A stretch of DNA of 35,351 nucleotides, taken from contig WYAU01000102.1 in NCBI GenBank assembly GCA_011525665.1, positions 1-35,351 of the forward strand, written 5' to 3'. Shown one piece after another: positions 297 through 35,351 of this stretch. The first letter of the stretch is position 1; each line of letters opens with the position of its first letter. Origin of the DNA: Candidatus Brocadia sp. (GTDB lineage: Bacteria > Planctomycetota > Brocadiia > Brocadiales > Brocadiaceae). The notes under the pieces were generated by a model. It saw only the letters and a program-made list of their open reading frames with translations, was not told the DNA's origin and ran no database searches. A program made the position numbers and the translations under genes.

Positions 297-310
297 AAGG
301 TCTGACCCCT
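297..310. repeat. REP-like motif AAGGTCTGACCCC
   Basis: The same core AAGGTYTGACCC recurs at about 26700-26712 (with TTGACCCTAAGCC repeated directly after it) and at 27488-27500. All copies lie in non-coding or degraded DNA. Here it fills the gap between the ATPase stop codon and the group II intron start. It is probably a dispersed intergenic repeat, but its family is not identified. Confidence 0.4.
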
Positions 311-3071
311 ACGACCCTTTATCTAACGGCCTTTCAGGCCTCAATTTCTGTATTGATTGTCTGATTTTATTTGCTATGAGCGGTAGTGTCTGAAAATACG
401 CGTTGTAAGTTTTCAAAAACCACCGCCTCCTTATCCATTTATCAATCTCAACGGCAATTACAATGGTTACTGTTATTGCTCCTACGTTCACCCATTCCAT
501 TTCTGTAAGCGGCTCCGTTTTAAAAACCCACTGAAGGGCTGGTACGTAGAGCACCGCAAGCTGGGCAAAAAAGGCAGCTATCATGCTGTAAAACAGGAAC
601 AGGTTACTGAACGGACTAATCCTGAAAACAGACCGGATTTCTGAACGTGAATTCCACGCCTGAAAGAACTGGAAGAAGACCATTGTTGTCATGGCAACGG
701 ATCTTGCCTTTTCAAGGGAAACACCTTCCTGTAAGGCTGAGATAAAATTATAAACAATACCACCGCTAATTATAAGGGCAACAAGAAAGGTTCTTTCTAT
801 CAGAAGCCGGGACAATATACCCTCACCCGGCTCTCTCGGCGGTCTGTTTATTATCCCTTTTTCCCCAGGTTCAAAGGCAAGGGCTACATCCTGCAAACCA
901 TTCGTAACGATATTTATCCAGAGAAGCTGGGTGGGCACGTATGGCATTGGTATACCAAGAATAAGCGTGGCAATAATGGAAATTATGGTAGCTATACCGG
1001 TTGGTATAAGAAAGAAGACGACCTTGCGGATATTGTCGAAGAGTATCCGTCCCTCTTTGACGGCATTAAATATACTTGCAAAATTATCGTCTACAAGGAC
1101 CATATCAGACGCCTCCTTTGCAACATCGGTTCCTGTTCTTCCCATAGCGATACCTATGTGTGCTTCCTTAAGGGCGGGAGCATCATTAACACCATCACCT
1201 GTAACAGCGACAACCTCGCCGTGCCTCTTCAATTGTTGTACGATCCTCAATTTATGGTGTGGAGAGACACGTGCATACACAGCGACATCCTTCACCTTAC
1301 GAAAGAGTTCTTCATCACTCATCGTTTCAAGTTCTTTGCCTGTAATTACATCAGGATTCTCACTACCCAATCCGAGTTTTTTTGCAATTGATACTGCGGT
1401 GACTGCATGGTCGCCCGTTATCATGATGGTTCTGATGCCCGCCTGTTTACAACCATTTATGGCCTCAATGGATTCCGGCCTTGGCGGGTCCATCATTCCC
1501 TGTAAACCGGCAAAGATCATACCTGACGGCAGGTCATGGTGGGTAAGTTCCTCCATGTCGTGCGGAGCTTCCTTGTAAGCACAGGCAAGTACCCGCATAC
1601 CCTCTTTTGCAAAATTGCCGGCGATATGTAAAATCTCTTTTTTCCTGGAACCGTCACCGTCCCCAGATCCGGTACACATATCCAGTACCTTCTCAGGTGC
1701 ACCTTTCACAAAGACAAACTTTTTCCCGCCGTGTCTGTGAAGGGTTGCCATGTAGCCATGTTCGGACTCAAAGGGTATGATTGCAATCTGCGGAAAGTGC
1801 TTCTTTTCCTCTTCCGGCATGAGACCGGCCTTCATTGCAGAAACGATAAGCGCCCCTTCCGTAGGGTCTCCGTCAACCTTATACTGACCGTCTTCCTCGT
1901 AAATATTTGATTCATTGCAGAGGAGTCCAATCCGCAACACCTGAAGATGTTTCTTTTTTTCTTCTGATTTAACTGACATCTGACCATGGTGTATCTCGCC
2001 TTTGGGTTCATATCCGTTTCCGGTAATATTATATATATGCTCTCCGTCGTAGATTAACCTGACGGTCATCTCGTTTTTTGTAAGGGTTCCCGTCTTATCT
2101 GAACAGATTACCGTGGTACTTCCGAGGGTTTCAGCAGCCGGAAGTTTTCTGATGATGGCGTTATGTTTTGCCATCCTGGCCACGCCAATAGCCATAGCTA
2201 TGGTCACGACGATGGGAAGTCCTTCAGGTATGGCAGCTACAGCAGCCGCCACTGCAGTCATGAACATGTCATGTATGCTTTCACCAATTATTATGCCTAT
2301 ACCAAAAAGCACCACAGAAGCTGCCATAACAATGAATCCAATATATTTTGCGAAATTTTCTATCTTTTTCTGAAGTGGCGCCTTCGTGACTCCTATCTCT
2401 TTAACCTCCCTGGCAATACTGCCAAGCACAGTCTTTGACCCTGTCTCTACCACGAGACCCTTTGCCCTACCACTTACCACGACTGTCCCCATAAATGCCA
2501 TATTCTTTTGGTCTCCGGGGGTCAGGTTATCTTCCCCTATTATTGCAATGGATTTTTCAGCGGGGACAGACTCGCCGGTAAGCATTGCCTCTTCAATCCT
2601 TAATTCATACGTCCTGAACAGCCGCAAGTCCGCCGGCACCTTGGTGCCGGATGCCAGGAGTACGATATCTCCGGGTACAAGTTCCTCACTGTTTATCTCT
2701 TTCTCTTTACCGTTTCTCAAAACCCGTGCCCTTGGTATGAGCATCTTCTTGAGCGCCCTGACACCCTGTTCCGCCTTATATTCCTGGATATAGCCAATAA
2801 TTGCATTAAGGACAACAACCGCCATAATTACACTGGTATCAATGTATTCATTAAGAACGGCCGTTACAACGGCGGCTACAAGAAGGATATAAATAAGCGG
2901 ACTGGTGAATTGGTGGAAAAGGATTTTCAGCCTGCTAATCTTTTCTTCTTCGACAAGTTTATTCAATCCATATTGCTGAAGGCGCTTGCCGGCCTCATTG
3001 TCGGTCAATCCTTCTTCAGACGTTCCGAGCTTCTGCATGATTTCTTTTATATGGAGTTGATACCAATTCAT
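309..3071 (-). CDS. P-type (P2-like) cation-transporting ATPase
   Basis: This 920-residue protein has the full P2-type ATPase layout. It has an N-terminal cation-ATPase domain, two membrane segments at about 55-95, the actuator motif TGES at 165-168, and M4 with PEGLP at 282-286. The phosphorylation motif DKTGT has the acceptor Asp at 325, GDGVNDAP forms the hinge, and six C-terminal membrane segments follow. It would pump a cation across the inner membrane using ATP. Compared with the SERCA calcium pump, M4 Glu (PEGLP) and M6 Asn are kept. The M5 Asn and Glu ligands are replaced by Gly and Thr, and the M6 Asp is Asn (TNG instead of TDG). Calcium specificity is therefore doubtful and the ion is unknown. 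A second ATPase of the same type begins at the other edge of the window. The gene ends immediately before a group II intron. Confidence 0.93.
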   Translation of the reverse strand: MNWYQLHIKEIMQKLGTSEEGLTDNEAGKRLQQYGLNKLVEEEKISRLKILFHQFTSPLIYILLVAAVVTAVLNEYIDTSVIMAVVVLNAIIGYIQEYKAEQGVRALKKMLIPRARVLRNGKEKEINSEELVPGDIVLLASGTKVPADLRLFRTYELRIEEAMLTGESVPAEKSIAIIGEDNLTPGDQKNMAFMGTVVVSGRAKGLVVETGSKTVLGSIAREVKEIGVTKAPLQKKIENFAKYIGFIVMAASVVLFGIGIIIGESIHDMFMTAVAAAVAAIPEGLPIVVTIAMAIGVARMAKHNAIIRKLPAAETLGSTTVICSDKTGTLTKNEMTVRLIYDGEHIYNITGNGYEPKGEIHHGQMSVKSEEKKKHLQVLRIGLLCNESNIYEEDGQYKVDGDPTEGALIVSAMKAGLMPEEEKKHFPQIAIIPFESEHGYMATLHRHGGKKFVFVKGAPEKVLDMCTGSGDGDGSRKKEILHIAGNFAKEGMRVLACAYKEAPHDMEELTHHDLPSGMIFAGLQGMMDPPRPESIEAINGCKQAGIRTIMITGDHAVTAVSIAKKLGLGSENPDVITGKELETMSDEELFRKVKDVAVYARVSPHHKLRIVQQLKRHGEVVAVTGDGVNDAPALKEAHIGIAMGRTGTDVAKEASDMVLVDDNFASIFNAVKEGRILFDNIRKVVFFLIPTGIATIISIIATLILGIPMPYVPTQLLWINIVTNGLQDVALAFEPGEKGIINRPPREPGEGILSRLLIERTFLVALIISGGIVYNFISALQEGVSLEKARSVAMTTMVFFQFFQAWNSRSEIRSVFRISPFSNLFLFYSMIAAFFAQLAVLYVPALQWVFKTEPLTEMEWVNVGAITVTIVIAVEIDKWIRRRWFLKTYNAYFQTLPLIANKIRQSIQKLRPERPLDKGS

Positions 3072-24540: not shown

Positions 24541-25745
24541 TTATACAATAACACCGGTCTCCGCTACAGCGGGGTCTCTCTTTAATGCCTTTGTAAACTT
24601 GCGTTCCTTGCGCCAGGCATTCAGGCAGGGGATTATGAATACACGGACCATCGCCATGGCCATGCCGCCGATGGAAGGAATCGCCATAGGTTTGGCTACT
24701 TCGGCGCCGGTTGACCACAGGATGGGCATAAGCCCGATAAATGTGGTGGCAGTTGTCATCATACAGGGTCGTATCCTTCGTGTGCCTGCCATCAGGATGG
24801 TATCGCGGATGTCCTGAATGCTTTTCATCTTTTTTTGCCCTGATCTGATTTTCAAACTGGCCGTTCCACTGTATAAAGCACCCATGGGGTAGCATAATTT
24901 TTCCGATACAATTCTGGATGCCTCTTCCACAAAGCTCATCGGGTCTCTGTCACGGACGTTCATCAGGACATAAGCCCTTAGGAGGGCATTTTCGCTGCTG
25001 ATCATGGCCGGTCCCATCACGTAACGGATATCAGCTACCTGGGTAATAGGGATGAGTTGACCTGCAGAGCCGGGGACATAGATCCTTTTCAGCGCGTCAA
25101 AATTATCACGAAGTTCCCGAACGTATCTGACCCGTACGGGATAGCGTTCGCGGCCTTCTACCGTTGTTGTGATGTTTTCTCCCCCAATGGCCGTCTCAAT
25201 AATATCCTGTACATCCCGGACATTGATACCGTAGCGGGCGATTTCCTCACGTTTAATCTTATTATTCCAGATAAGGTTTTCCGGTAATCCTTTCTGCGTA
25301 CAGATCCACAGCTCCGGGTACATTGCGTAATGCCTTTTCAACGTCAAGGGCTAATTGCTGCAGTATGTTCAGGTCTGTTCCAAATATCTTGACACCCACC
25401 GAAGTACGAATTCCCGTTGCCAGCATGTCAATGCGGTTTACGATGGGCAGCATCACCGGCATAATCAGGATAGAACCTTCGTCCAGGGGGGCATAAATTC
25501 CCGCCCGATTCTTTTTGCTACAAAGATGGCTGAAATGACTATGATGAGCGGAAAACGTCTTCTTATGATCAATCACCCATTTGAGAACGGGCTGATAACC
25601 CCGTAACAACATCCTGGAAATAAAATTATCTTCCATAGGTCTTAATTTGCCTTTAATCAGAAAAGTACAGAGTAAAGGCACCAGGGTAATTGCCATAATA
25701 ACCGATGCCCCGATGGCAAAGGTCTTGGTCCATGCCAGCGGTTTA
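24541..25745 (-). pseudogene. CusA-type RND efflux pump, truncated and internally deleted copy
   Basis: The translated pieces match the intact CusA at 28729-31938 almost residue for residue, but the copy is broken. It lacks about 460 N-terminal residues, starting only at [15 protein letters not shown]. About 114 codons are missing between MPVMLP and [11 protein letters not shown], with CCC at both deletion ends. The match shifts frame near 25520 ([10 protein letters not shown]), near 25275 and near 24895. About 83 more codons, including several membrane segments, are missing between QIRAKK and KMKSIQDIRDT. The C-terminus (AVAETGVIV) and stop are intact. It cannot make a working pump. It is in the same orientation as the intact gene. 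Confidence 0.93.
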
Positions 25746-26142
25746 TAAAATCCTTTGCATCCTTGAATGCGTTCCTTATCAGGTTTGCGTTGAGATAAGA
25801 CCTCGATAATATCCGGCGATGTGCAGTGTGTCATAGAGGTGTTCGAATTTCTTTGTAACCTTTCCGTTGTGCATGGCAAAATGTTTCTGTAGTGTCTTCG
25901 GTATGCTATGCATCGACTGATTTGGGTAGTTCTTTCCTGCTCATATCTTTTTTCCGTAATGCTTCATTGAGTGCTTCCAGGATTGCCAAATATGTTGTGC
26001 CGAATGTTTCCCGTACTGGTTTAATATCCGTGTAGTCATTATCCTCTGTGGGGATGCGGGCGAGTATTTCTTTGGCATTTTGAAGATATCTTAGTGCTTC
26101 CTTCATTTTCTGAATGGTATCGTTTATTTTTCTGGTTTTCAA
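25746..26142 (-). pseudogene. DUF5618-family protein, frameshifted and cut at its 3' end
   Basis: The first 78 codons from a TTG start read NDTIQKMKEALRYLQNAKEI, then YTDIKPVRETFGTTYLAILE and ALNEALRKK, as in the small helical DUF5618 family. A stop after PKSVDA interrupts the gene. The remainder continues in other frames as [31 protein letters not shown] and finally [15 protein letters not shown]. The last matching codons run directly into the CusA pseudogene near 25745, so its final codons appear to have been replaced. The family is HEPN-like in character and often found near toxin-antitoxin genes, but its function is not established. Confidence 0.7.
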
Positions 26143-28728: not shown

Positions 28729-31700
28729 TTATACCATAATTCCTGTCTCCGCAATATACGGATCTTTCTTCAGCGCCTTCTTGAACCGGTATTCCTTGTG
28801 CCATGCGTTTAAACAGGGGATGATGAAGACCGTAATGGATGCCATAAGCATGCCGCCGATGGAAGGAATTGCCATGGGTTTGGCCACCTCGGCACCGGCG
28901 CCCGTTGACCACAGCAGGGGGAGGAGTCCGATAAAGGTCGTTACCGAGGTCATCATGCAGGGCCTTATCCGCCGTGTGCCTGCCATCAGGATGGTATCCC
29001 GGATATCCTGAACGCTTTTCATCTTCTTTTTGCCAAAAAGATCGTTCATATACGTCGTAATGAGGACGGAATCGTCATCCACAATGCCAAATATGGAGAT
29101 GAAACCTACCCAGACAGCAACACTGAAATTATATCCAAACAGGTATTGAAGCCAGACACCGCCTGCAATAGCCGTTGGTATCCCGGCAAACAGGATAAAC
29201 ATGGTTTGAGGGAATGACTTGAATGCCATAAAAATCAGGATGAAACCAACAAACAGGGATAAGGGCACAAGGATTTGCAGTCTTTTTCTCGCCCTGATCT
29301 GATTTTCGAACTGACCGCTCCACTGGATGAAGTACCCATGGGGTAACATGACTTTTTGCGATACAACCTTCGATGCCTCGTCTACAAAGCTCATCGGGTC
29401 CCTGCCGCGGACGTTCATAAGGACATAAGCCCTCAGGAGGGCATTTTCACTGCTGATCATGGCCGGGCCCATCACGTACCTGACATCGGCTACCTGGGTG
29501 AGAGGAATTAAAGTACCCGTCGAACTTGAGACGTAAATCCTTTTTAGGGCATCAAAGTTGTCCCTGAGTTCCCTGCTGTATCTGATCCGCACGGGGTATC
29601 GTTCGCGTCCTTCAATCGTCGTGGTGACATTCTCTCCTCCAATCGCCGTTTCTATGATATCCTGCACGTCCCGGATATTGACTCCGTAGCGGGCAATCTC
29701 TTCCCGTTTAATCTTGAATTCCAGATAAGGTTTACCGGTAACCCGCTCGGCATAGAGGTCGGCTACCCCGGGAACATCGTGCAGTACCTTTTCGATATCA
29801 AGGGCTAATTGCTGAATGACGTTCAGGTCTGGTCCAAAGACTTTTACGCCAACTGACGTTCGGATACCTGTTGCCAGCATGTCGATCCGGTTTACAATGG
29901 GTTGCGTCCATATATTTGCCACACCTGGTATTCTGAGCGCTTCATCCATTTCCTGAATGAGTTCCTGTTTCGTTATTGTCCGTTCATCTGACAAAATCCA
30001 ATGAAAGATCGGATGAAGGAAGGAGGGTACGTAATCTAAAAATGTGTATTCAATCTTCTTCTTGCGCCATTCTTCCTTTGGTTTTAAGGCAACAACGGTC
30101 TCAAACATCTCGACAGGCGCTGGGTCTGTGGGGGTTTCAGCCCTGCCCAATTTACCTACAACCATGTCTACCTCCGGAAAGGACTTTATAATCATGTCCT
30201 GTTTCTGCATGACCTTCAGGGCGTCCGTTAAGGCCACGCTGGGCAACATTACCGGCATGAAAAGGATCGAACCCTCGTCAAGGGGAGGCATAAATTCCCT
30301 TCCCAGTTTTTTTGCGGCAAAGGCGGATGAAACAACAATCGCAAGCGGTATGGCGAGAAACGTCTTCTTATGACTTAATACCCAGCGCAGGACGGGCTGA
30401 TAACCTCTCAACAACGTCCTGGAAGTAAAATTATCTTCCATAGGTCTTAATTTGCCTTTGATCAGAAAGGTACAGAGTATAGGGACCAGGGTAATTGCCA
30501 TGACGACCGATGCCCCAATGGCAAAGGTCTTTGTCCACGCCAGTGGTTTAAAGAGCTTCCCTTCCTGTCCTGTGAGTCCAAATACCGGCAAGAACATAAA
30601 AACGGTGGTTAATGCTGCAAAGAAAATAGAACTACCGACCTCTTTAGAGGCATCAAGAATGATCTGTGGCCTGCTTTTCTTGCCCTTTTGTTCAATGAGG
30701 TTCCGAAAGATATTCTCTGTCATTATGATAGACATGTCGCTCACCTCACCAATGGCAATGGCAATACCCGTGAGTGACATAATATTGGAATCAATGCCCA
30801 TAAAATACATGCCCAGGAAGGAGATAAGTATCGATACAGGGAATCCAAGGCAGCAGATAATGATGCTCCGGACATGCAATAAAAAGAGGGCAACTACAAC
30901 AGAAGTGATAATGATCTCTTCTATCAACGCCTCTCTCAGGGTATCAATAACCCGATAGATAAGTCCTTCCCTGTCATAAAAGGACACGATCTTTACACCG
31001 GGTGGCAGCCCTGGTTCGATTTCCTGTATCTTCTTTTTTATCCTCCTGATAACTTCCAGCGGGTTTTGCCCCTGCCGCATGATGACAATGCCACCGGTAA
31101 CCTCAGCGCCTTCCTTGTCCAGTGCGCCACGCCGAAAATCGCCTCCGATCTGAACCGTGCCAATGTTTTTTACGAACACCGGCACACCATTAAAACTGCC
31201 TACCGTGATATTTTCAATATCCGCAATATTCTTGATAAATCCAAGTCCGCGGATGATAAACTCCATATTGTTGCTTTCCACCACTTTGGCGCCCACGTCG
31301 ATATTGCTCTTGCGAACTGCTTCGTACACCATCCCCACGGTCATGTTATATGCGAACAGCTTGTTGGGGTCTACGTCGACCTGATATTGTTTGACAAAAC
31401 CGCCTACCCCTGCTACCTCAGAGACTCCCTCAACGGCATTTAATTGATATCGAATATACCAGTCCTGGACAGAGCGCAGTTGACCAAGGTCGTATCCCTC
31501 GCCTTCCACGGTATACCAGAAGATCTGGCCAAGTCCTGTAGCGTCGGGACCGAGTCGGGGGGTGACGTCTTTTGGAAGTAATTGCTGGATAAAATTCAGT
31601 CTTTCCAGTACCCGGGAGCGCGCCCAATAAAATTCTACATTATCCTTGAAGATGATAAAGATCATGGAAAAGCCGAAGCCCGACTGTGACCGTATGACCT

Positions 31701-31938
31701 TTACGCCGGGTACGCCGAGCAGATTGACCGTCAAAGGGTAGGTGACCTGATCCTCGACGTCCTGGGGGCTGCGTCCCGGCCAATCGGTGAAGACGATACA
31801 CTGGTTCTCGCCGACGTCCGGGATGACGTCCATGTTAATATTCTTCAAACCATAGACGCCACCGAATATCACCAGCAGGTAAAAGCAGATGACGAGGAAT
31901 CGGTTTTTAAGACAGAGTTCGATGAGTTTGTTGATCAT
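28729..31938 (-). CDS. cusA: CusA/CzcA-type heavy-metal RND efflux pump
   Basis: This 1069-residue inner-membrane protein belongs to the HME subgroup of RND pumps. It has an N-terminal membrane segment and the porter signature MDVIPDVGENQCIVFTDWPG at 36-55. SPQDVEDQVTYPLT follows, as does the pore motif GRAETPTDPAPVEM. Two blocks of membrane helices frame two periplasmic loops. In the fourth membrane helix Asp401 of IAIGEVSDMSIIMTENI is the likely proton relay; the surrounding residues differ from the common AMVDAAIVMIEN. With a CusB-type adaptor and an outer-membrane channel it would export metal ions driven by protons. The channel gene is not in the window. Its ribosome site (GGTGA) lies in the inverted repeat of the inserted cassette, 8 bp upstream of which the cassette gene stops. 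Confidence 0.95.
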   Translation of the reverse strand: MINKLIELCLKNRFLVICFYLLVIFGGVYGLKNINMDVIPDVGENQCIVFTDWPGRSPQDVEDQVTYPLTVNLLGVPGVKVIRSQSGFGFSMIFIIFKDNVEFYWARSRVLERLNFIQQLLPKDVTPRLGPDATGLGQIFWYTVEGEGYDLGQLRSVQDWYIRYQLNAVEGVSEVAGVGGFVKQYQVDVDPNKLFAYNMTVGMVYEAVRKSNIDVGAKVVESNNMEFIIRGLGFIKNIADIENITVGSFNGVPVFVKNIGTVQIGGDFRRGALDKEGAEVTGGIVIMRQGQNPLEVIRRIKKKIQEIEPGLPPGVKIVSFYDREGLIYRVIDTLREALIEEIIITSVVVALFLLHVRSIIICCLGFPVSILISFLGMYFMGIDSNIMSLTGIAIAIGEVSDMSIIMTENIFRNLIEQKGKKSRPQIILDASKEVGSSIFFAALTTVFMFLPVFGLTGQEGKLFKPLAWTKTFAIGASVVMAITLVPILCTFLIKGKLRPMEDNFTSRTLLRGYQPVLRWVLSHKKTFLAIPLAIVVSSAFAAKKLGREFMPPLDEGSILFMPVMLPSVALTDALKVMQKQDMIIKSFPEVDMVVGKLGRAETPTDPAPVEMFETVVALKPKEEWRKKKIEYTFLDYVPSFLHPIFHWILSDERTITKQELIQEMDEALRIPGVANIWTQPIVNRIDMLATGIRTSVGVKVFGPDLNVIQQLALDIEKVLHDVPGVADLYAERVTGKPYLEFKIKREEIARYGVNIRDVQDIIETAIGGENVTTTIEGRERYPVRIRYSRELRDNFDALKRIYVSSSTGTLIPLTQVADVRYVMGPAMISSENALLRAYVLMNVRGRDPMSFVDEASKVVSQKVMLPHGYFIQWSGQFENQIRARKRLQILVPLSLFVGFILIFMAFKSFPQTMFILFAGIPTAIAGGVWLQYLFGYNFSVAVWVGFISIFGIVDDDSVLITTYMNDLFGKKKMKSVQDIRDTILMAGTRRIRPCMMTSVTTFIGLLPLLWSTGAGAEVAKPMAIPSIGGMLMASITVFIIPCLNAWHKEYRFKKALKKDPYIAETGIMV

Positions 31939-31945
31939 AGGCGAT

Positions 31946-31958
31946 TTTCACCGCAGAG
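31946..31958. repeat. Inverted repeat, left arm (TTTCACCGCAGAG)
   Basis: It is the perfect inverted partner of CTCTGCGGTGAAA at 32353-32365. It contains the stop codon of the GxxExxY gene and the ribosome site of cusA. More distant bases (GGGCGCGGAGAA) also partly mirror the other arm. Confidence 0.85.
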
Positions 31959-32334
31959 GGCGCGGAGAATTGAGGAAATTATTAACGACCCTTTGAATAC
32001 CATCTTTTAATACTTCAATATTAAAGTTGATCAATAATCCAACTTTGCAGTTAGCCAGCTTTAAATAAGACAATAATTGAGCTTTATGAATTGGGAGAAA
32101 CTTTTCAATGGATTTTATTTCTACAATGACTTCATTCTCTACCAGTTTCACCTCCCGATATATAACAGGAAGGGACTTTTGTTGTTCTACCCTTAAGCCT
32201 GCTTGTGCGAGATCATATACCATGCACGCCTCGTGAGCAGATTCAAGTAGTCCTGGGCCTAATGCCTTGTGAATGCCAATAGCCACCCCAATAATTGTTT
32301 CGGTTATTTTGTTAAGCCTTTCTTCTTCATCCAT
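31948..32334 (-). CDS. GxxExxY-type protein (PD-(D/E)XK-like fold)
   Basis: This 128-residue protein has IGVAIGIHKALGPGLLESAH at about 14-33 and VIVEIKSIEKF and AQLLSYLKLANCKVGLLINF further on. These match the GxxExxY protein family, which resembles PD-(D/E)XK nucleases. The motif here is GLLESAH, so the usual Tyr is His. Function is not established. The gene sits exactly between cusB and cusA and is flanked by perfect 13-bp inverted repeats. A GAGG ribosome site lies within the right-arm repeat region, and the stop codon is in the left arm. It looks like a cassette inserted into the metal operon rather than a functional part of it. Confidence 0.85.
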   Translation of the reverse strand: MDEEERLNKITETIIGVAIGIHKALGPGLLESAHEACMVYDLAQAGLRVEQQKSLPVIYREVKLVENEVIVEIKSIEKFLPIHKAQLLSYLKLANCKVGLLINFNIEVLKDGIQRVVNNFLNSPRPLR

Positions 32335-32367: not shown

Positions 32368-34479
32368 TTATTTTTCCTCTTTAAACTCCATTGCCCCGCC
32401 GTACAGGGCGCTGGAGCCGCCGGTGAGTTGGCTCTGTGAATCGATGAGGAAGTTGGCTGATGTAACCACTTTATCTCCTTCTTCCAAACCTTCTAAGACA
32501 GGGTAATAATCACCGGCCTTTGGTCCGAGTACGACCTCTTTTCCCACATATTGCCCGTTGCCTTTATCAATATAGACGATCTTTCGAATACCGGTGTCTA
32601 ATACTGCCGTGGCCGGGATGGCAAGGACTTGCGTAGTTTTTTCAAGGTTCATCCCACATTTATTACAATGTTCTGGTGTATCAGAAACAACCTCTGGATG
32701 CATGGGGCAGGCATAAACACGGCGCCTTTTGGGTTCCAGTTTTTGCACCTTTATCCCTAATCCTTCCTGTACCTCCCATCTGCCCATCTGTCTTTTACAA
32801 TCAGGGCATTCTCCTGGTTTATCGGAGCTCATACAGGCCATAGGGCACATGTATACAAATTTCTGTTTCTTCTCACCCGCGGGTGATGTTATCGTCACGC
32901 TTGTTTGCAATAACATACCGCACATGGGACATACCCTAGGCGCAGCAGCCGGGTCCCATTCCTGGGGACAGATACACGTCATTTTTCCACCCGGAACTTC
33001 AGCAGGTATCTCTTTCTTCACAAGCCGCATGCCACATACCGGGCAATCGCCATCTGTTTTAGATGTATGGCATTCCATAGGGCACACATATACCGTTTCT
33101 GCCGTGACTGCCATCTCCGGCTTCTCCTTTTCGGAGACAGGGACAGGTTTAGAGGCAGGGAGTTTTTCCAGTTTCATCCCGCATTGCGGGCAATTCCCCG
33201 GTTCTTTTGCGGTATGACATTCCATGGGACATACGTATTCATACTCACTTTCTCCTTGCGGAGGAATCATACTACCGGCAGCAACCGGCTCAAGCTGGGA
33301 AGGGGGGTTCTTTACAAAGGGGATGTTATCTTCAGGGCATACACCCGGCCTGCTGGATTTTATTTCCGGGTGGTTGGGGCAGACGTAATCCAGCCCACTT
33401 ACATAATTTCGTCCCTGTTCTTCAAGTTCTTCAACCGGTATCCGTATACGGGCGTTGACATACATGGAGGGTTTGAGCTTGAGTTGTTGATTAGGGATAT
33501 CGCAGCGGATCTTTACCGAACGTGTCTTGTCATCAAGGAATGGTTCAATAAAGGCAACTCTCCCGATAAAGGCCTCTCCCGGATATGCAGGGGTCGTGAC
33601 CTCCACTTCCTGTCCAACCCTGACCCAGGCCATTTCATACTCGTAAATATTGGCCTTCATCCATATATTTGCCAGGTCGGCAACCGTGTAGAGTATCTCG
33701 CCCTGCATCACGTATTGGCCTTCCAGCGCCTTTTTTTCTATGACAATACCGCTTATTGGGGCGTAGATAATGGTATGCTGTTTTACCTGCTTATCCCTCG
33801 TCAGCTCTTCAATCTGTTTTTCCGTGACACCCCACCACAACAACCTTCTTTTTGATGCATCAATGAGTGATTGTGCACCACTTATTACCTCAGGGAGAGG
33901 ACTTTCCTTAACTTTTTCAAGGGTTTCCAGAGCCAGCAGATATTCTTCCTGTGTAGAGAGAAGCTCCGGGCTATATATCCAGACCATAGATTCACCTTTG
34001 ACAACCTGCGTTCCGGTAAAATCAACAAAGAGTTTGTCAATCCTGCCTGGAATCCATGCCGAAACAAAGGCCTTGAGCCGCTCATCATATTCAATCATTC
34101 CCACCGTATAGATGTCTTTAGTCAGTGACCGGTAACCGATAACATCCGTTTTAACACGTGCAAGTTTGCGGGCGCGCTCACTCAGTTCTATCGTTGCTAA
34201 TGCGCCTTCTTCCTCTACACCTGCACCTTTTTCATATACGGGAACAAGGTCCATGGCGCAAATAGGGCATTTGCCGGGTTTATCCATTTTCACAGAAGGA
34301 TGCATACCACAGGTCCAATAGAGTACTTTCTTACTTTCTTCGCCGTTTGCAGAAGGGATAAGATTTGATACCTGCAGTGAGGGTCTATTAACTATCAGTA
34401 CACTTACCAGAACAATAAATATAATAAGCACGGGTATCATACAATATTTTTTTAAAGGAAACTTTTGTTTAAAAACCAT
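32368..34479 (-). CDS. cusB: CusB-like efflux adaptor with seven heavy-metal-binding modules
   Basis: This 703-residue periplasmic membrane-fusion protein would link CusA to an outer-membrane channel. It starts with a membrane anchor (14-31). A heavy-metal-binding module at 53-81 has WTCGMHPSV and CPICAMDLVPV. The adaptor hairpin, lipoyl and barrel regions run from about 90 to 350 (SAWIPGRIDKLFVDFTGT; YAPISGIVIEKKALEGQYV; PFLDDKTRSVKIRCD). Six further modules follow at 364-390, 414-437, 463-487, 500-525, 542-567 and 588-613, most with two Cys pairs ending CPxCGM. The adaptor resumes with VLAIPATAVLDTG and finishes at 703. CusB proteins normally have at most one such module, so the 250-residue insertion is exceptional. 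A good AAAGGTG site precedes the ATG. cusA follows after the GxxExxY cassette. Confidence 0.93.
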   Translation of the reverse strand: MVFKQKFPLKKYCMIPVLIIFIVLVSVLIVNRPSLQVSNLIPSANGEESKKVLYWTCGMHPSVKMDKPGKCPICAMDLVPVYEKGAGVEEEGALATIELSERARKLARVKTDVIGYRSLTKDIYTVGMIEYDERLKAFVSAWIPGRIDKLFVDFTGTQVVKGESMVWIYSPELLSTQEEYLLALETLEKVKESPLPEVISGAQSLIDASKRRLLWWGVTEKQIEELTRDKQVKQHTIIYAPISGIVIEKKALEGQYVMQGEILYTVADLANIWMKANIYEYEMAWVRVGQEVEVTTPAYPGEAFIGRVAFIEPFLDDKTRSVKIRCDIPNQQLKLKPSMYVNARIRIPVEELEEQGRNYVSGLDYVCPNHPEIKSSRPGVCPEDNIPFVKNPPSQLEPVAAGSMIPPQGESEYEYVCPMECHTAKEPGNCPQCGMKLEKLPASKPVPVSEKEKPEMAVTAETVYVCPMECHTSKTDGDCPVCGMRLVKKEIPAEVPGGKMTCICPQEWDPAAAPRVCPMCGMLLQTSVTITSPAGEKKQKFVYMCPMACMSSDKPGECPDCKRQMGRWEVQEGLGIKVQKLEPKRRRVYACPMHPEVVSDTPEHCNKCGMNLEKTTQVLAIPATAVLDTGIRKIVYIDKGNGQYVGKEVVLGPKAGDYYPVLEGLEEGDKVVTSANFLIDSQSQLTGGSSALYGGAMEFKEEK

Positions 34480-34548: not shown

Positions 34549-35076
34549 TTATTTTTGAAACCTCTTTTGTTCCTTTTTACAAATGGGACAAGCCAAAAAG
34601 TCTATATCGCATGTCTTGCAATGCTGAATGAGCCATTCATGCGGCTTCATCCTGCAATCCCGGCATTTCAGCTTCCAGGTTGCCAATACCTTTCCCTTCA
34701 CATATCTTAAGAGTACCTTTTTGCACTTAGGACACTTGCCTATCATTGTTTCGGCTTTTAAACCAGCGGAGGCCTTTTGACACGTTGTGCATACAAGGAC
34801 GCCTTTTCCACATTTGTCACAATGGTGGACTTCGAGTGCTGATACTTCACTATTGCAGTCAGGGCAAACCATACTTTTTGCGGCAAGTGCCATTTCTTTT
34901 TCAGGACTTACATGCACTTTCTTACAAAAAGGGCACATGGGTGGTTCTGTGGTTGAATGTTCAGACAACGGCTCGTCTTTGTACACTATCTCGCCAGCAT
35001 ACATCAGATTGCCGCCCCACAGAAGTAGATACATCATTACTGGCGCAACCGTTTTTATAAATTTCTTATACACCAT
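34549..35076 (-). CDS. Exported Cys-rich protein with eight CxxC motifs, unknown
   Basis: This 175-residue protein has an N-terminal signal peptide (VAPVMMYLLLWGGNLMYAG). Eight CxxC pairs follow at 48, 71, 86, 96, 115, 138, 153 and 163. The second four repeat the first four at an exact spacing of 67 residues, so it is an internal duplication of a module C-x2-C-x19-C-x2-C-x11-C-x2-C-x6-C-x2-C. This resembles zinc-ribbon or rubredoxin-like knuckles and would bind metal ions such as copper or zinc in the periplasm. I do not recognise a named family. It is the first gene of the metal operon, 69 nt before cusB, and has a MerR-style promoter. A metal chaperone or sequestering role is inferred. Confidence 0.85.
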   Translation of the reverse strand: MVYKKFIKTVAPVMMYLLLWGGNLMYAGEIVYKDEPLSEHSTTEPPMCPFCKKVHVSPEKEMALAAKSMVCPDCNSEVSALEVHHCDKCGKGVLVCTTCQKASAGLKAETMIGKCPKCKKVLLRYVKGKVLATWKLKCRDCRMKPHEWLIQHCKTCDIDFLACPICKKEQKRFQK

Positions 35077-35102
35077 AGTATCACCACTTTTTCAGCAAAA
35101 GA

Positions 35103-35135
35103 ATTATATATCAGGACAAGCGCCTCGCTTGTCAA
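35103..35135 (-). promoter_or_regulatory. MerR-family-style promoter/operator of the metal-efflux operon
   Basis: On the minus strand TTGACA (35135-35130) is followed by TATATA (35110-35105) with a 19-bp spacer. This is the long spacing typical of promoters twisted into activity by MerR, CueR or ZntR. A perfect dyad GACAAGCG-AGG-CGCTTGTC (35133-35115) fills the spacer, again as in MerR operators. Alternatively TATAAT at 35108-35103 gives a 21-bp spacer. The start codon of the Cys-rich gene lies about 25 bp downstream. No merR-type gene is in the window. Confidence 0.6.
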
Positions 35136-35140
35136 CAAGT

Positions 35141-35170
35141 GTGATTCCTCATTCCGCTCGGAATGACAAG
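35141..35170. repeat. Dispersed intergenic motif TTGTCATTCCGAGCGGAATG
   Basis: The minus strand reads TGTCATTCCGAGCGGAATGA followed by GGAATCAC. It has internal symmetry (CATTCCG-AG-CGGAATG, a 7-bp stem) and resembles the short intergenic repeat seen in many environmental bacteria. It sits just after the second ATPase gene and could act as a hairpin terminator or a REP-like element. Confidence 0.4.
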
Positions 35171-35171
35171 T

Positions 35172-35351
35172 TTTAAATCTTTTCCCTTTTGCTGTGTTTA
35201 ATTATCTCCATAATGACAAACGTGAGAGCGGAAAATCCAAAGACAACCATCCACTCATTAAGTCCCAAAGGTCTTACCCGGAAGATATTTTCAAAAAAAG
35301 GGGCATACACGATAGCTATCTGCAGGGCCAATGAAATACCCGTTGCCAGCA
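35172..35351 (-). CDS. P-type cation ATPase, C-terminal fragment (5' end beyond window)
   Basis: The minus-strand frame from the right edge reads LATGISLALQIAIVYAPFFE, then IFRVRPLGLNEWMVVFGFSA and EIIKHSKREKI before a stop at 35172. This matches the last two membrane segments and the end of P2-type ATPases, including the one at 309-3071. Only about 59 residues are in the window, so its ion cannot be assessed. It is the gene just upstream of the metal operon, with a promoter of its own between them. Confidence 0.8.

Follow-up and report, generated by a model that had tools for sequence, protein, structure and literature searches.

A predicted exported protein with eight CxxC motifs, encoded beside metal pumps in planctomycetes of the anammox order

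The protein encoded by positions 34549-35076 (minus strand) of the window, the whole 35,351-nucleotide stretch of Candidatus Brocadia DNA, belongs to a real, well conserved and unnamed family. We call this protein Q. Most simply, it can be read as a protein that carries or buffers metal through thiolates outside the cytoplasm and is tied to metal export. We further propose, with confidence that is evenly balanced, that Q is a CusF-like periplasmic metal-thiolate protein of unrelated fold, which would buffer a soft metal, with Cu(I) as the likeliest candidate, or relay it to the adaptor CusB, through its HMBD motifs, and to the pump CusA. Efflux systems with a metal-binding partner beyond the cytoplasm are a known kind, so the role is not categorically new. 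The features of the window that bear on this proposal are collected in Table 1, where G and L labels here and below denote genomes and loci, respectively, and G000 is the window's own genome.

Table 1. Features of the window around the Q gene, with positions, strand and basis or remark
Feature	Position	Strand	Basis or remark
Q, eight-CxxC protein with predicted export, 175 aa, two four-CxxC modules	34549..35076	-	ORF and signal-like N-terminus
Signal peptide (predicted), approximately residues 1-29, with a hydrophobic core that starts near residue 6 and without a lipobox	34990..35076	-	hydropathy and inspection
Module 1, residues 44-105, CxxC at 48/71/86/96	34762..34947	-	
Module 2, residues 110-175, CxxC at 115/138/153/163, in the clade of C-terminal modules	34552..34749	-	
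C-terminal end of P2-type cation ATPase, rest beyond the contig end	35173..35351	-	whole homologue in L034
CusB-type adaptor, 703 aa, seven HMBD-like motifs	32368..34479	-	
PDDEXK_3 (GxxExxR-type) ORF between cusB and cusA	31948..32334	-	
CusA/CzcA-family HME-RND pump, 1069 aa, with a Met triad at the positions of M573/M623/M672 in E. coli CusA	28729..31938	-	

Comparison of Q with its two closest homologues gave dN/dS values of 0.21 and 0.33. This indicates purifying selection and supports Q as a real, selected gene. The class was covered by 75 genomes, and strong matches to Q occur in 44 of the 62 that lie inside one planctomycete order versus none of the 13 that lie outside it, and a search of 392 genomes of the phylum added only two weak matches outside the order. 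Hydrazine synthase alpha (HZS-alpha), a marker of anammox, is present in 38 of 59 relatives, which identifies this order as that of the anammox bacteria. The window's own assembly gave no match to HZS-alpha, perhaps due to an assembly gap. Searches of plasmids and viral contigs returned no homologue of Q, a search of a defence library returned no match, and a search of one literature library found no publication on the family. When contigs were searched with the single protein, the sole close relative was a homologue from Planctomycetes bacterium RIFCSPLOWO2_12_FULL_40_19.

Matches were found in 44 of the 59 relatives searched. After the DNA surrounding these matches had been fetched, 60 open reading frames of the Q family could be gathered, comprising 38 with two recognizable modules, nine with three, 11 with one, and two fragments that lack a complete module. 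Most relatives carry proteins about 45-60% identical to the window's Q. The copies in G020 (87%) and in G044 (81%), a member of another family, are far closer than this, which suggests transfer within the order. A second member of the family resides in the window's own genome (L051, G000:C39:7387-7926), directly after a gene for an octahaem cytochrome, and is 55% identical to Q. At five loci (L065, L070, L071, L082 and L086), modules are interrupted by an internal stop or are incomplete through missing CxxC pairs, suggesting that the gene is decaying in some lineages.

The sequence-only reading had described Q as the product of an exact 67-residue duplication. Each CxxC motif of module 1 indeed recurs exactly 67 residues later in module 2, at the positions originally given, and eight CxxC motifs did not arise in any of 20,000 shuffled versions of the mature sequence. 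Exactness extends to the spacing of the cysteines but not to the sequence between them, because the two halves are only about 30% identical overall (19/63 in one alignment, 31% in another) and the linker varies in relatives. At non-cysteine positions, 11 of 54 residues are identical, with a BLOSUM score of 18 versus a shuffle mean of -42 (p ~1e-4). Given the overall identity of the halves, the duplication is an old one with a frozen cysteine geometry rather than a recent exact copy.

The 67-residue offset is the sum of 48 residues, spanned from the first to the fourth CxxC, and 19 residues that separate this point from the module that follows. Across the family, spacing within modules is nearly fixed at 23-25, 15 (12 in one subgroup) and 10 residues, while the step from one module to another varies, at about 13-25 residues. 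An alignment of 17 diverse modules retained eight cysteines and one proline as its only invariant positions. In a tree of modules, the C-terminal modules of f1 and f4, two of the families within the order, form a single clade (46 rows, 99/100) to which the second module of the window belongs. The first module of the window groups with other first modules, and the modules of a related family, f2, sit apart. From this grouping the duplication looks to predate the split of the f1 and f4 families, although the tree draws on few columns and its details are unsure.

As judged by hydropathy and inspection only, nearly all full-length family members begin with charged residues and then a hydrophobic core, after which a site for signal peptidase I is plausible, and they lack a lipobox. 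In Q, cleavage is predicted near the junction of MYA and G, for which relatives read VYA and E. The earlier description of Q as a secreted protein is thereby upheld as a prediction, and Q presumably resides outside the cytoplasm.

What the exported modules might look like is suggested by profile searches. Q gave weak matches, all below curated cut-offs, to the zinc-ribbon families DZR_2, Zn_ribbon_6 and HVO_2753. The scores for DZR_2 (PF18912) were 18.9-24.4 bits, and thus did not reach the gathering cut-off of 27. Zinc-ribbon chains in the PDB were also matched weakly. PDB matches to Aart and to a consensus zinc finger were discarded, as these repeated C2H2 proteins sum weak chance matches. 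Structure prediction used only the window protein and the L033 homologue, and the resulting AlphaFold models are shallow and have low confidence, with mean pLDDT values of 66 for the module and 59. The module model gave Foldseek E-values above 1 and a best VIA-align Z of 3.7, with rows that are largely zinc-ribbon or other zinc-binding chains. Its best structural matches include PNGase, Rpb9, the regulatory chain of ATCase and LysW, all with Z below 4, a pattern that is compatible with a zinc ribbon but no proof of one. The full-length model, also of low confidence, yielded no usable Foldseek match. Taken as a prediction, a Q module of about 57 residues with four CxxC knuckles most likely folds like a zinc ribbon, and no curated family explains the eight-CxxC pattern at its own cut-off.

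An exported protein whose 16 cysteines all lie in CxxC pairs might instead be a redox-active disulfide protein, with pairs that cycle outside the cytoplasm and, for example, keep the cysteines of a pump or cytochrome reduced. We regard this as highly improbable, because profile searches matched no thioredoxin-fold or Dsb family and because the spacing and CPxC knuckles of Q are typical of metal ribbons. If Q is a metal-thiolate protein, as we prefer, four CxxC knuckles per module would give a two-module Q 16 ligand cysteines. Zinc ribbons are usually structural, which counts against a carrier. Their resemblance to Q lends some weight to an explanation in which Q binds zinc or cadmium by thiolates in the periplasm in a general capacity, where its stable structural ribbons serve as a buffer or as a scaffold for pump subunits, and in which copper is not relayed.

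The genes that surround Q supply further clues to its role. In the window, the order is P2-type ATPase, Q, CusB, CusA. The same arrangement of a P2-type cation ATPase before Q and CusB after it is seen in L034, L035 and L038. Only the C-terminal end of this ATPase identifies it in the window. The f2 genomes start with a P1B-ATPase, which is followed by one or two Q genes and then by genes for an outer-membrane factor, CusB and CusA, mostly with short gaps. Elsewhere, Q follows CusA (L062 and L066) or stands ahead of genes for an outer-membrane factor, CusB and CusA (L060). Q adjoins cusB or cusA in the window, at these six other loci and at the f2 loci. Conservation of gene order with cusB, as it had been proposed to check, thus takes the form of a linkage that recurs across many genomes in several orders.

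Of the 40 members with full context, 28 have a P-type ATPase or Cus gene no more than three genes away. The chance expectation is about 2%, a rough estimate made from the six P-type ATPases and approximately five RND loci of the window's genome, and the loci compared are not phylogenetically independent. Several distinct gene orders with CusBA or a P1B-ATPase recur. That Q leads a metal-efflux operon, as first supposed, is borne out with respect to linkage. It is not clearly upheld as a statement about gene order, because a P2-type ATPase gene on the same strand ends 96 nt upstream of Q, at the window edge. Many relatives are found beside an octahaem cytochrome rather than CusBA.

These latter loci deserve separate consideration. 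Many loci of the Brocadiaceae type carry a P2-ATPase, an octahaem cytochrome (PF13447) and, in some, a YHS-domain protein, followed by Q, with no CusBA. Of 59 members, 18 have an octahaem-type cytochrome at most three genes away, often directly upstream. This arrangement raises the possibility that Q is an exported rubredoxin-like iron electron carrier that serves the adjoining octahaem HAO-type cytochrome. Rubredoxins and zinc ribbons have a common knuckle geometry, so iron and zinc cannot be told apart by the sequence of Q alone. However, the cytochrome is absent from CusBA-type loci, including the window, and only one weak match to a rubredoxin family was obtained (RUBY_RBDX, E 0.18). An iron carrier of this kind is therefore unlikely. 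The octahaem-cytochrome loci do make it conceivable that Q works with zinc or iron, and the many members beside such a cytochrome and a P2-ATPase mean that copper may not be the general theme of the family.

Several additional characteristics of the window were noted. The PDDEXK_3 ORF is probably outside the metal function, and a related ORF occupies the same cusB-cusA interval in L034. At 24541-25879, two overlapping ORFs resemble portions of CusA and are apparently what is left of another cusA copy that has decayed. Upstream of Q, an extra stretch at 35077-35172 that is absent in the closest relatives, L034 and L035, carries the inverted repeats CATTCCG-AG-CGGAATG and GACAAGC-GAG-GCGCTTGTC. 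The first of these occurs once in the genome. The region upstream of Q was rejected as a repeat element, since it too is present just once in the genome. A circular contig was likewise rejected, because the ends do not overlap and the ATPase at the left end (309-3071) is a separate gene.

The proteins linked to Q bear on which metal might be involved. The CusA of the window is 42% identical to that of E. coli. Its methionine triad is kept in all 12 other intact CusA proteins of Q-linked loci, whereas a CzcA-like control pump of pMOL30 (RS30445) has S, A and E at these positions. At the residue aligned with K984 of E. coli CusA, which we take to be a proton relay, most f1 and f4 pumps have Cys, L034 has Ala and f2 pumps have Lys. 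The ATPases at f2 loci possess CPC and TM7/TM8 signatures that we take to be of the Cu(I) type (P1B-1 ATPases), and all but one possess an HMA motif. The adaptor is rich in cysteine, in agreement with the original description. Six of its seven HMBD-like motifs lie in an insert after the barrel-sandwich part, from residue 365 to about 611. By pattern count, most closer relatives of this adaptor have four or five such motifs, and distant ones have none or one.

Copper is the best candidate for the window and the f2 loci, since both have a linked CusA of the Cu(I) type and the f2 loci also a linked ATPase of this type. The same features argue against the general zinc or cadmium protein introduced above, to which linkage of the family with different pump types, including P2-type ATPases, is otherwise favorable. 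We consider that explanation possible but doubtful. For the preferred CusF-like protein, we infer that each module would hold metal by thiolates, that Q would act as an extracytoplasmic buffer for a soft metal, Cu(I) being the most likely, and that CusB would receive the metal at its HMBD motifs before CusA does.

CusCBA of E. coli is described as requiring the metallochaperone CusF (PMC6235853). The CusF profile (PF11604) matched nothing in G000 or in any other Q-bearing genome. Among relatives, CusF was found only in G036 and G039, both of which lack Q. This complementarity is weak, as several genomes have neither protein. Q may fill the role of CusF, though it is not CusF by membership. A broader and more tentative proposal is that bacteria of the anammox order use the lineage-specific Q family, not CusF, as a periplasmic Cu(I) shuttle. 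The metal would come from a Cu(I)-ATPase of the inner membrane, or from another pump, and would reach CusA by way of an adaptor with as many as seven HMBD motifs. If true, the relay would be based on cysteine instead of methionine.

In sum, a CusF-like role is favored by 60 ORFs with near-uniform cysteine spacing and signal-like N-termini, by the zinc-ribbon matches, by linkage to pumps, by the Cu(I)-type signatures of the f2 ATPases, by the methionine triad and by the lack of CusF matches in Q-bearing genomes. It is weakened by the P2-type (Ca/Mn-like) ATPase and octahaem loci, by the low confidence of the structural models and by the phylogenetic non-independence of the loci. The sequence-only reading is upheld in part. 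Its putative periplasmic metal relay would fit with homologues that have signal-like N-termini and are mostly linked to metal transporters. Known Cus-type systems employ CusF and methionine sites in the periplasm. Exported zinc-ribbon-like repeats tied to Cu(I)-type pumps and multi-HMBD adaptors would represent a different chemistry for extracytoplasmic metal handling, in bacteria whose anammox metabolism depends on many metalloproteins.

Comparison with established proteins helps to place the family. Like Q, the Cu(I)/Ag(I) metallochaperone CusF (PF11604) of the E. coli CusCFBA system is small, exported and encoded beside cusB and cusA, and Q is proposed here to supply metal to an adaptor and pump in the same manner. 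CusF is a small beta-barrel with Met, His and Trp ligands. In contrast, Q has no PF11604 match in a Pfam search, and carries 16 cysteines in CxxC pairs. DZR_2, Zn_ribbon_6 (PF07191) and DZR (PF12773) share with Q four CxxC motifs in about 50-55 residues and CPxC knuckles. The Q family differs from them in its signal-like N-termini, its one to three repeats and its linkage to metal pumps, and its matches to them fall below the gathering cut-off. Small zinc finger proteins of the HVO_2753 type likewise pack four C(P)XC motifs into some 60 residues, and HVO_2753 is among the best, though not significant, matches of Q in solved structures and NCBIfam. Proteins of this type are small, single-module and archaeal and have no export signal, in which Q differs. 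Finally, CopM of Synechocystis, encoded near copBAC, is described as copper-binding, and as a lineage-specific protein that works with an HME-RND metal pump (PMC4335983) it parallels, by this description, the role proposed for Q.
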